64,000 bases of DNA from Hydractinia symbiolongicarpus (taxonomy: Eukaryota; Cnidaria; Hydrozoa; Anthoathecata; Hydractiniidae). Position 1 is the first letter of the stretch; each line of letters opens with the position of its first letter. The notes beneath the pieces are model-generated. The model saw only the letters and a program-made list of their open reading frames with translations. It searched no databases and was not told where the DNA came from. The stretch spans positions 5,642,001 to 5,706,000 of the forward strand of contig NC_079889.1 in the NCBI RefSeq assembly GCF_029227915.1, read 5' to 3'. The translations under genes and the position numbers were made by a program. Shown here piece after piece: positions 29,458 to 61,170 of the stretch.

Positions 29458-29620
29458 ATAGATAGATAGATAGATAGATAGATAGATAGATAGATAGATA
29501 GATAGATAGATAGATAGATAGATAGATAGATAGATAGATAGATAGATAGATAGATAGATAGATAGATAGATAGATAGATAGATAGATAGATAGATAGATA
29601 GATAGATAGATAGATAGATA
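29458..29620 (+). repeat. GATA microsatellite 1 (about 41 copies)
   Basis: Uninterrupted tetranucleotide array of about 163 bp. It is the left border of block E1. On its outer (left) side there is no TGAAT at 5 bp, so that side looks like ordinary flanking DNA. Confidence 0.98.
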
Positions 29621-29630
29621 GAAATATTCA

Positions 29631-29870
29631 TGCTCCTGATTTTCAAATTATTTGCTCCCTATGTAACAATTTTGCTCCCTGGATTCAAATTTAGTTTTGA
29701 ATCCAGGGAGCATTGCTCCCGAAATTCAAATTGCCTGCTCCCTGTAACAATTTTGCTCCCGAAATTCAAATTTCATTTTGCATCCAGGGAGCAATGCTCC
29801 CGAAATGCAAATTGTCGATTTTGCATATCGGGAGCAGTGCTCCCGATGTTCATATTTAGTGCTCCCGTGG
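29631..29870 (+). repeat. E1 left terminal motif cluster
   Basis: About 12 copies of a GCTCCC core, several extended to TGCTCCCGAAATTCAAAT or its GCAAAT variant, at irregular spacing. Three pairs are arranged head to head, for example ATCCAGGGAGCATTGCTCCC near 29701, forming short hairpins. The first copy (TGCTCCTGATTTTCAAAT) directly follows the terminal ATTCA. Conserved core with variable spacing resembles subterminal recombinase or transposase binding sites rather than a simple tandem repeat. Confidence 0.85.
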
Positions 29871-30301
29871 TACAAAGCAATCAAGACAATAATAACAAAC
29901 GGAGGATATCGAGGTTATTACAAACAGTGAATATTGGTTAGTGAAAGTTTACAGAGGTGTAGGATTGTTTCTTGTTCTGTGTTGATTATATTTTTGCTTC
30001 TTTATTAATCTTTTTGTTAACATGCTAAGAATATGTACAATATCATAGACTTTTATTTTGATATTCAACTAGTTAGCTAGCTAGCTAGTTATCTATGTTA
30101 GCAGTTTATGTATAGCTAGCTAGCTATCGTAAAGATGAAAGTTCAAAGTTGTGATTTTCTATTATACAACATCCTTGAAAACTAGAAATAGTATATACAT
30201 AATAAGTTGCATGAGGAAATAATTGTTGAAAAAATGAACATGGCCTCTCAACATAGCTATATATAATCTCTAAATTTCAAAGTGCAAAGCTACCATACTT
30301 A

Positions 30302-30631
30302 GGGGCCTTCGAAAAATTTTTTCGGGCCCCCTTAGCGGGATATCACCGCTAAGGGGGGAGGGGGTCTGAAGCTTGAAAAAGAAATCCGCTAACGATTGAG
30401 AAATTTTAAAAAATAGTTTGTGGCCTGAACATTCTTCGTTGTTCGTGAGCATAATTCCTATTTTCATCAATTCCGATAACTTTTATCTACAAAACACGCC
30501 CCTGAGCCTTCCAAGAATTTATCCGAATGTGTGTATTTCACAGACGGAAATCCACTAAAAGAGGGGGAGGGTCTCTGAATCTTAGCGGCGATATCCTGCT
30601 AACGGGGCCGAAAATTTTTTTCGAAGGCCCC
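30302..30631. mobile_element. 330-bp Harbinger-like MITE
   Basis: The two ends are inverted repeats of about 55 bp: GGGGCCTTCGAAAAATTTTT at the left and its near-perfect reverse complement at 30612-30631. Inside them GGATATCACCGCTAAG pairs with CTTAGCGGCGATATCC. The element is flanked by TTA on both sides (30299-30301 and 30632-30634). A three-base TTA duplication plus GG-rich ends fits PIF/Harbinger MITEs. It carries no coding frame and lies inside E1. Confidence 0.85.
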
Positions 30632-30999
30632 TTAGGCTAAGTGTTATAGCTATATGTAGCTAGCTATATATATTACATTTATCTTTTATGTGTAACTGAT
30701 TAGATGTTTCTTTTTCTCTTTATTATTTTTGTTTGCCATAGAGTGACAACACGCTGGGTTTTTTTTGGTTTCTAAAAGATATATACTTGTTGTAAACGTA
30801 TTTGGGCATAATTCTTAAGAAAACCAGCTGATGCGTCAAGTGAGAATTACCCGGATTGCGGTCATTGTGATAAATTCTGTATAATGGGTAGCTATTGTTG
30901 TACAGAAGATTGTCTGTTTGTGTAGTTTACACGTCAAATAAAAAATAATGAATGAAAGTTATATAAATAATTTGATGCAACGAAATGTTTTCAATGACG

Positions 31000-58755: not shown

Positions 58756-58756
58756 A

Positions 58757-58910
58757 AGATAACGAGTGCTTATTTTATATAAAATTACAACGAGTCTATA
58801 TTTGATAAAACGATAGTGAGTCTTTATTTGATACAACAACAAGGACTCATATTTTATTAAACAATAACGAGTTTTTTATTTTTAAAAACGATAAGTTTTT
58901 ATTACATGTT
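58757..58910 (+). repeat. short AT-rich tandem repeat after gene B
   Basis: About five diverged copies of a roughly 30-bp unit around AACGAGTCTTTATTTGATA, in the 3' flank of gene B. Confidence 0.6.
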
Positions 58911-59880
58911 TTTGAGCCGCTTTTATGTATATTTTTTATGATGCCATGCAAATTTATTAAGTTGAGTCTTTTATTTGTATACCCCATTCTAATAATTATT
59001 TGGAGAAACAATCTTGTTAAGTTTACTTCTCGCAATACGTAAATGAAACGCCCAAGAGCTTATACAACCAAAAAAAAAAAATTCCAATCGTTTCTAGTAT
59101 GTGCAATTTTGCGAATAGTGTCAGGATTGCGCGAAAATAAGGTGAACTGTCAGTCAAAGTTTTTCGCCTCATTACTTGCAGCTAGAGTTTCAGCTTGAAT
59201 GTTATGGTTCCAACATCCAATGGCTTTGACGTACAGTTTCTGGGGTTCCAGTTATAAAATTTCAAATAAATGTTAAAGCGGTAACTCGAGAGAATTAGGT
59301 CACTGGAGATTTACTTCCGGGCCTTGTGTTACGGTAGTTATACCGTTTATTAAAATCACGGTTGACTTCATGATTTTCCTAACCCTTATCTTAGCTTTCC
59401 AGGTTGTTGCGACGTTTAGAATGCCTTTAGCCTACCAATGTAATTACAGTCTATGTTAAGATAACTATTATTGCCAAGATTGATACCTTTTCGATCTATA
59501 CAACTGTTTTATATATGCTGTAATGCTTAAAATGAATTAGTAATAATGATAATAAATCTCCCTGTGTACGTTTCGCCCACGCGTTGTGTGTTTGGAAGAA
59601 CACGGATCTTACGTCAACAGGACTTATATGGAAACAACATTTAGCACCTATATTTTCGTTGACCACATTCAATTAAACTACCAGTTTATTATTCGTTTTT
59701 GTGCCTTAACAACAAGGCTGTAAATGCCCACCTGCTGTGCTGGCGGCAAAATTCTTTTTATCTTTAACTAACGCCAAACTATTATGAACTCGACAGTCCC
59801 AAGTTTAATGTGTGTTAATCAAAACAAGTTTGCAATATTGACAAAAAACGCATGGTTATGGCCTTTTTGCGAAATAAAAT
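58911..59880. other. E2 3' region without recognised gene
   Basis: AT-rich DNA with no coding content seen. Confidence 0.5.
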
Positions 59881-59883
59881 TTC

Positions 59884-60666
59884 GTAACTAATCTCCCCTA
59901 AAAGATACAAAATTTATATTGCAATTCTGCGGTCTAAATGACTGTCACAGGTGCTAATTTGTGGTTTTAGTATTGCAGAGTGCTTTGATCTTCCTTCTCA
60001 GTGGGTTTTTAATCTTTTTTATTAAAAGCGCAGCAACATAATTAATATCCATGGATCTCCTAAAATTGAGGGAGATTAGTTACGTCAACAGCAAAATTGG
60101 GGTACTATCACTAAACCTTAAATTTTATCCGTTTTGAAAATCCCACTGACATGAATTTTTGCATGATAGTTGCTGAATGATATATCTATACACATACCTA
60201 ATTTTAAGTTAATTCATCAACAAATAAGGCCGCAAAACACATTTTCAGAAATTAACGATGTCGCGTTTCGTTCCTCCAACGAACTCCTTTCCAAGGTTGC
60301 GTTTAGTTACACGAACCCCACTTGACTGTCGTATTCAAAACATAACTCCAAATTAAAAGCAAAGGGATTTTAGTGGATAGTATATTTCTATGCTATTGGG
60401 GTGTCTCAACACGACTAAAATTTTTTTTAACTCATTTGGGCCTTATTTAGGCCCAATTTCTGATATAGGGGAGATTAGTTACATTGACAACTTTAAATCG
60501 TTATTGCGAAAATTTGAAAGGGATCTTAGGAAAACAATTATGGGGGTTGCAGAAAGTATTGAACAAATTTTAAAAAAAATTAATTAAACTTGCATTTGCG
60601 CGGACATATATAGGAAAGATACAGCCTTAATTTACGCGTAGAAAATCTCCCCTAGATGAATCTACA
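59884..60666 (+). repeat. E2 right terminal region
   Basis: Sparse copies of the E2 motif: inverted GTAACTAATCTCCCC (59884-59898), direct AGGGAGATTAGTTAC (60069-60083), direct GGGGAGATTAGTTAC (60468-60482) and a half-site AATCTCCCC (60644-60652). Ends in TGAAT, CTACA and the third GATA array. The 65-codon frame at 60390 runs through a motif copy and is not taken as a gene. Confidence 0.85.
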
Positions 60667-61170
60667 GATAGATAGATAGATAGATAGATAGATAGATAGA
60701 TAGATAGATAGATAGATAGATAGATAGATAGATAGATAGATAGATAGATAGATAGATAGATAGATAGATAGATAGATAGATAGATAGATAGATAGATAGA
60801 TAGATAGATAGATAGATAGATAGATAGATAGATAGATAGATAGATAGATAGATAGATAGATAGATAGATAGATAGATAGATAGATAGATAGATAGATAGA
60901 TAGATAGATAGATAGATAGATAGATAGATAGATAGATAGATAGATAGATAGATAGATAGATAGATAGATAGATAGATAGATAGATAGATAGATAGATAGA
61001 TAGATAGATAGATAGATAGATAGATAGATAGATAGATAGATAGATAGATAGATAGATAGATAGATAGATAGATAGATAGATAGATAGATAGATAGATAGA
61101 TAGATAGATAGATAGATAGATAGATAGATAGATAGATAGATAGATAGATAGATAGATAGATAGATAGATA
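60667..61170 (+). repeat. GATA microsatellite 3 (about 126 copies)
   Basis: Perfect 504-bp array, right border of E2. Its outer side (TAGAGACAGCCCAG) has no TGAAT end, so it looks like ordinary flanking DNA. An array this long may be subject to assembly length error. Confidence 0.97.

Follow-up and report, generated by a model that had tools for sequence, protein, structure and literature searches.

Tyrosine-recombinase elements bounded by GATA and TAT microsatellites in the genome of Hydractinia symbiolongicarpus

Two adjoining blocks of DNA, here called elements A and B, lie between three long GATA arrays in the genome of the hydroid Hydractinia symbiolongicarpus, and each of them contains a gene for a tyrosine recombinase (YR). 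The stretch analysed, hereafter the window, comprises 64,000 nucleotides (C15:5642001-5706000), and window positions are counted from its first base. Genome searches covered 480,894,487 bases in 76 contigs; the available part of the HSymV2.0 description gives 15 chromosomes, 35.85% GC and 482,928,323 bases in 84 sequences for this species (PMC10411563). The features of the two blocks (ORF, open reading frame) are as follows:

29458-29622, + strand: GATA array 1, perfect, about 41 units; outer flank of A
29621-51525, + strand: element A, 21.9 kb; its end bases recur at both ends of the C4 and C11 copies and at the right end of the C1 and C14 copies
29653-29866, + strand: subterminal motif cluster of A, 11 copies of TGCTCCC on both strands
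38381-38551, + strand: first SET exon in A (Pfam SET, 1e-4); bounds approximate, from a stop-to-stop frame
38699-38947, + strand: second SET exon in A (Pfam SET, 1.5e-8); bounds approximate
40985-41617, + strand: gene A exon with two C2H2-like fingers; BLASTP match (E 2.9e-10) to the beginning of gene B
42964-44010, - strand: ORF of 348 residues in the gap between gene A exons; no Pfam match
46863-48383, + strand: gene A exon with the recombinase core, from the alignment of recombinase members
48945-49286, + strand: possible C-terminal exon of gene A, discussed below
51525-51626, + strand: GATA array 2, perfect, 25 units; common to A and B
51626-60666, + strand: element B, 9.0 kb; same end bases in five other copies where readable
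51637-51802, + strand: subterminal motif cluster of B, eight copies of GGGGAGAT
55312-55875, + strand: ORF of 188 residues 5' of the B recombinase, kept in six of six B copies and in locus L014; no Pfam match
56447-58549, + strand: gene B, a 701-residue frame with C2H2-like fingers and a tyrosine-recombinase core
60666-61170, + strand: GATA array 3, perfect, 126 units; outer flank of B

Block A begins with (GATA)40-G-AAAT-ATTCA and finishes with TGAAT-CTAAA-(GATA)25; block B begins with (GATA)25-G-GGAG-ATTCA and finishes with TGAAT-CTACA-(GATA)126. In both, the left ATTCA stands four bases from GATAG and the right TGAAT five bases from GATA. The cluster motifs are packed into the first ~245 bp of A (TGCTCCC, counted on either strand) and the first ~175 bp of B (GGGGAGAT), and each has two to four more copies near the opposite end of its element. 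Most of this layout had been described in an earlier note made from the window alone. Its three arrays with blocks of 21.9 and 9.0 kb, its dense private cluster with sparse distal copies, its single tyrosine-recombinase gene per block and its shared middle array are all found again here; its TGAAT at 5 bp from the array holds for the right ends, and the outer sides of arrays 1 and 3 lack an end signature, as it had said, in the flanks as read. GATA arrays of at least four units and TAT arrays of at least six were both absent from background sequence (131,022 fetched bases). Gene A is split, because the exon carrying its fingers matches the start of gene B.

A genome search with the recombinase revealed five near-identical copies of B beyond the window (on C11, C9, C1, C14 and C4). 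Their homology spans window positions 51626-60666, at up to 99.9% identity, and ends at those bases. Eleven of the 12 ends of these six copies can be read, and all 11 adjoin a GATA-type repeat of varied length and make-up; past the arrays the flanks differ between copies, save where they hold neighbouring elements of a further family, C (see below), or one common dispersed repeat. Four copies keep the gene B frame open; the C1 copy has a single stop in it, and in the C4 copy it is broken. Element A is represented by seven listed copies, full or partial (the window copy on C15, one each on C4, C11 and C1, and three on C14). At the right ends of the C4, C1, C14:2.08 Mb and C11 copies, homology breaks at 51525 with GATA next to it, and at the left ends of the C4 and C11 copies it breaks at 29621, again beside GATA; in five copies, 8 of 10 ends were read, all 8 at a GATA-type repeat. 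Both families combined, 19 of 22 ends are readable, with the same stop bases and a GATA-type repeat in 19 of 19. The suggestion of the earlier note that related elements are integrated in a GATA microsatellite is thereby strengthened by near-identical copies on other chromosomes that break at the same bases. Matched end signatures of A enclose spans of 17.5, 19.5, 19.5, 28.4 and 21.9 kb, and the interior of A therefore varies between copies.

The ends were also used as patterns for scans of the whole genome, with the reversed pattern as control. The right-end pattern, TGAATCTAMA(GATA)4 with up to two mismatches, occurs at 16 sites (1 in the control), ten of them reading AAA (A type) and six ACA (B type). 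The left-end pattern, (GATA)4-G-NNNN-ATTCA matched exactly, occurs at 24 sites (1 in the control), where NNNN is AAAT in 6 (A), GGAG in 5 (B), ATAT in 12 and CTAT in 1. The ATAT ends reveal a third GATA-bounded family, C: all but one of its 12 left ends (the exception being C14:11887767) have a recombinase match 3.1-5.8 kb downstream in the correct orientation, and one copy measures 8,398 bp end to end. Scans for end signatures, of the kind that the earlier note had proposed for this genome, yield further A- and B-type ends and a further family. The lone CTAT site (C4:16610901-16610926) is unlike A, B or C and perhaps belongs to another family.

Seven arrays join two neighbouring elements in the same orientation. 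The junctions are A-B in the window (25 GATA units), B-C at C11:21.93 Mb (39 units), C-B at C14:14.87 Mb (20 units), A-C at C1:27.19 Mb (a compound array), C-A and C-C at C11:27.23 Mb (98 and 187 units, respectively) and B-A at C14:14.86 Mb, the last read from end positions 670 bp apart. The joined neighbours at C11:27.23 Mb and at C14:14.86-14.87 Mb therefore form trains, C-C-A and C-B-A. The recombinase coding strand is the GATA strand in the fetched copies of A, B and C with a readable array; this strand rule rests on the fetched copies, as the end-pattern scans fix orientation by design.

Family D lies at a different repeat. Two of its copies (C13 and C15) match each other over 12.6 kb (99.5% identity) and 5.4 kb (98.3%), and both end at (TAT)n on each side; the unit counts are 30 and 42 for one copy, 82 and 30 for its counterpart. 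A scan for TGAATTAGGAA(TAT)5 with up to two mismatches found six genome sites and none in the control; five are at known D copies, and the sixth, C7:17380997, has its own recombinase match 9 kb away. With the recombinase read forward, D has a terminal motif cluster upstream (seven copies, and eight internal) and an ATTCA six bases from the repeat. One of its ORFs carries a DBF-type finger (Pfam, 2.2e-13). This ORF was considered as cargo, an idea that we dropped since its end holds the first C2H2-like finger, and it is probably the 5' exon of the recombinase gene. In a further family, E, a 155-bp tandem repeat lies upstream of the recombinase, with nine copies at L020:3030-4434 and 23 at L021:4979-8549. 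The two GATA-bounded elements of the earlier note stand; it had not picked up family C, family D with its TAT repeats, the SET domain or trains of more than two elements.

Two-sided repeats, a single orientation and shared arrays are likewise predicted by homologous recombination, the principal alternative, in which circles form between flanking arrays and re-enter arrays through GATA homology, with the recombinase as a passenger; the present data, moreover, show no recombinase activity. This process does not account for the presence, in the units found, of a recombinase whose catalytic residues are conserved, nor for the similar short end motifs and single dense subterminal cluster of families at different repeats. 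We regard it as unlikely.

The evidence that these proteins are YRs comes from an alignment of 12 members, numbered here in the 701-residue frame of gene B. R341, K373, K456, H479 and Y488 are invariant in all 12, and the second arginine, R455, is replaced by Q in L022 and L024; the residues follow the tyrosine-recombinase order Arg, Lys, His/Lys-Arg, His, Tyr. A comparison of the core with six phage integrases gave an alignment of 245 columns (E 0.0067; reversed control, 0.78) in which the catalytic residues are in register. Two C2H2-like fingers can be made out by eye ahead of the core, and a C-terminal block found in an exon of C is also present in B, D, E, F, G and L023. Behind the core, the sequence has, by eye only, a Myb/SANT-like look. 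A tree built from 12 sequences (462 columns) places A, B and C together (support 0.983), with A on a long branch, and sets D, E, F and G apart. A sequence search of solved structures with the recombinase returned no YR match, the 82 pattern matches in IMG/VR included no relative of it, and structure prediction from two sequences gave no usable fold (pLDDT 33.5).

Taken together, A and B most likely represent two families within one group of YR DNA transposons whose members integrate into microsatellites. Their ends are fixed, GATA (A, B and C) or TAT (D) lies at every readable end, the fetched copies have one orientation relative to the repeat strand, near-identical copies are dispersed through the genome and the catalytic residues are kept. 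We infer that the recombinase itself does the integrating. The short inverted ends of B (AGATTCA/TGAATCT) would also suit ordinary DDE transposons that prefer GATA, with a transposase that was missed and the recombinase as cargo or resolvase; no DDE domain was found among the ORFs of A, B and D, which were scanned in part, and we judge this explanation highly improbable.

Several observations weigh against integration by a YR into microsatellites. In the protein comparisons, the hhalign probability with the six integrases was only 5.7% despite the E-value, lambda Int alone was not significant against the core (E 0.59), and Pfam gave weak support, with Phage_integrase in 3 of 12 members (best 5e-4) and Phage_int_SAM_1 in 5 of 12 (best 0.014). 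At the ends, homology in the C9 copy of B stops at 59279 and no right end was found in the 2 kb beyond; homology in the C14:2.08 Mb copy of A breaks at 31933 and no left end was found; and the left end of the C1 copy of A lies outside the fetched pieces and is thus unread. The right end of C, TTACCTATACA-(GATA), lacks TGAAT, and the left-end scan gave no exact match for at least five C-like recombinase loci (C1:27490181, C14:14875401, C2:10635236, C7:13987529 and C8:7791685). Conversely, A- or B-type end signatures occur without a listed full recombinase nearby at C3:29263381, C3:29248123, C6:15859811, C2:21423139 and C15:7372759; these are possible non-autonomous or broken copies. This sequence analysis revealed no empty allele, no circle and no recombinase activity. 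Finally, the 10-kb pieces around four older relatives of B (L014, L015, L018 and L019; 60-89% amino-acid identity to B) hold no GATA array of four or more units. Copies at non-GATA sites were what the earlier note had named as telling against its proposal: no intact copy was seen at such a site, but these relatives do lack an array. They refute nothing clearly, because they are fragmented and rearranged.

Two of these relatives have features of their own. In L014 (C6:21266500-21276490), an upstream stretch is 93% identical to B in DNA, and the recombinase is only 60% identical in protein; the locus could be a mosaic or carry an exchanged module. At L015:6110-7039, the right end of a B-type element, still with a remnant of TATC, is inverted against inner B sequence near window position 58770, an arrangement that looks as it might after an inversion.

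The repeats could be targets that existed before the elements or, as the earlier note had also allowed, GATA that the elements carry themselves. The array at L010 runs into TA, L011 has different imperfect repeats on each side and L032 is of the TTAGATAGA type, and all three look like host microsatellites. The arrays at L011, L013 and L033 adjoin one dispersed repeat, as do those at L009 and L016 (78-82% identity), and the same repeat is unoccupied at L039:2189-2541, where it has three GATA units. By eye, it looks like a tRNA-derived short interspersed nuclear element (SINE), and it is a possible source of targets. Since the arrays are host-like or compound and the dispersed repeat also occurs unoccupied, pre-existing targets are favoured and self-carried GATA is the less likely of the two.

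When the ends of B are joined through one GATA unit, they read TGAATCT-ACAGATAGGG-AGATTCA, in which a 10-bp spacer with GATAG inside it separates two inverted arms of 7 bp; the ends of A joined in the same way have the same layout with one arm mismatch. A YR core site could have this form. We propose that the element would leave as a circle, whose joined ends would form a core site of inverted arms around one repeat unit. The YR may bind the arms of this site and perhaps also, through its finger domains, the dense subterminal repeats; the one-sided clusters recall the arm-type sites of lambda Int. Strand exchange between the GATA(G) of the circle and a GATA(G) of the host array would yield the observed junctions. 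Because repeat would be left on both sides, a next element could land beside its predecessor, making trains.

Element A also encodes a SET domain, for which the nearest solved structures are KMT5A/SETD8. SET exons occur in six of the seven listed A copies, the C1 copy having none, and SET-like exons lie upstream of the recombinase in L023, L025 and L027, with Pfam confirmation in L023 and L025 and none in L027. Search rows (66 + 97) were merged into 89 recombinase loci, some of which are fragments. Within 8 kb upstream on the same strand, 22 of the 89 have a SET match, and the three controls (same strand downstream, opposite strand upstream and opposite strand downstream) gave 0, 0 and 0; within 16 kb, the corresponding counts are 26 and 3, 0 and 0. 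There are at least 137 SET matches in the genome, and most of those listed lie away from recombinase loci. Two matches, one from the SET search and one from the YR search, at C4:6128035 and C4:6130597, both report a 1272-residue open frame, which suggests that the frame (C4:6128035-6131631) holds SET and YR in one polypeptide. Four SET copies that were compared read NDS at the position where KMT5A reads NHS, making activity doubtful. No SET match was found in the full B copies, the two full D copies or the C pieces examined. The predicted KMT5A-like SET domain is a feature of A and of other lineages.

A wider reading, to which we give an even chance, is that of an unnamed group of animal YR elements whose lineages each home to a particular microsatellite, (GATA)n, (TAT)n and perhaps others, and build trains in the flanking repeat of their predecessors. 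GATA-tailed SINEs would supply targets, and a KMT5A-like SET domain accompanying the recombinase, possibly within one polypeptide in at least one case, would mark chromatin at the sites.

Two candidates within A gained no support from searches. For the possible C-terminal exon of gene A, a resemblance to the final part of gene B was noted by eye only and is unsupported by BLAST. Minus-strand frames at window positions 34170-35967 were suspected by eye to be a nested long interspersed nuclear element, and Pfam returned no match; part of this interval is common to a C14 copy of A. Outside the elements, the window contains minisatellites at 14530-15077 (19 bp x 29) and 20045-20712 (67 bp x 10).

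The YR domain of Cryptons is named DUF3504, GCR1_C being a further Crypton-type domain, and that of the captains of Starships, large YR-bearing DNA elements of fungi with other genes, is DUF3435. None of these was present in the 12 members among Pfam matches up to E 0.5. The Hydractinia elements share with Starships a large size, a YR and the presence of other genes; besides lacking a captain-type domain, they differ from them in their animal host and microsatellite target. Like Cryptons, they are intron-bearing DNA elements with a YR. The scan for reverse transcriptase covered part of the ORFs in A, B and D and gave no match, in B or in the other two, and A has frames that look like one by eye. 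According to the parts available of the published account, animal Cryptons lack terminal repeats and a C-terminal domain, and a circle intermediate with conservative integration has been proposed for them (Kojima and Jurka 2011, PMC3212892). By contrast, the Hydractinia elements stop at fixed bases, bear short inverted motifs there and have subterminal clusters; their proteins have fingers and a C-terminal block that is conserved, their targets are microsatellites and their sizes are 8-28 kb. Any Crypton-style end repeats of 4-6 bp would here be the GATA(G) on both sides, indistinguishable from the microsatellite itself.

Another comparison is with nimaviral YRs, which have C2H2 and SAM-like domains and, in the published description, insert viral genomes into (TAACC)n or 28S rDNA, the target going with the integrase type (PMC10871703). 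The Hydractinia proteins share the plan of C2H2, SAM-like and YR domains and the simple-repeat target. Nimaviral genomes, however, measure hundreds of kb and come from crustaceans (PMC10871703), and no viral gene was recognised in the Hydractinia elements. The group resembles nimaviral YRs in aim and Cryptons in kind. The word 'crypton' is absent from the available text of the HSymV2.0 paper (PMC10411563), and both 'crypton' and 'recombinase' from that of another Hydractinia genome paper (PMC11067881). Titles and opening lines of abstracts in the open-licence literature mention no cnidarian YR element that targets microsatellites; Repbase and Dfam were not compared.

A precedent for a microsatellite-targeting YR exists in crustacean nimaviruses. 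If a hydroid kept in the laboratory has a group of transposons with related families at GATA and at TAT, what determines the choice of target would become open to direct test. That near-identical copies retain intact recombinase frames suggests recent movement, and the trains preserve the order in which elements were inserted. It would be unusual for a recombinase to have a histone-methyltransferase-like domain as its partner in transposition. If the enzymes work as we propose, they would be natural animal integrases with distinct short repeat targets.

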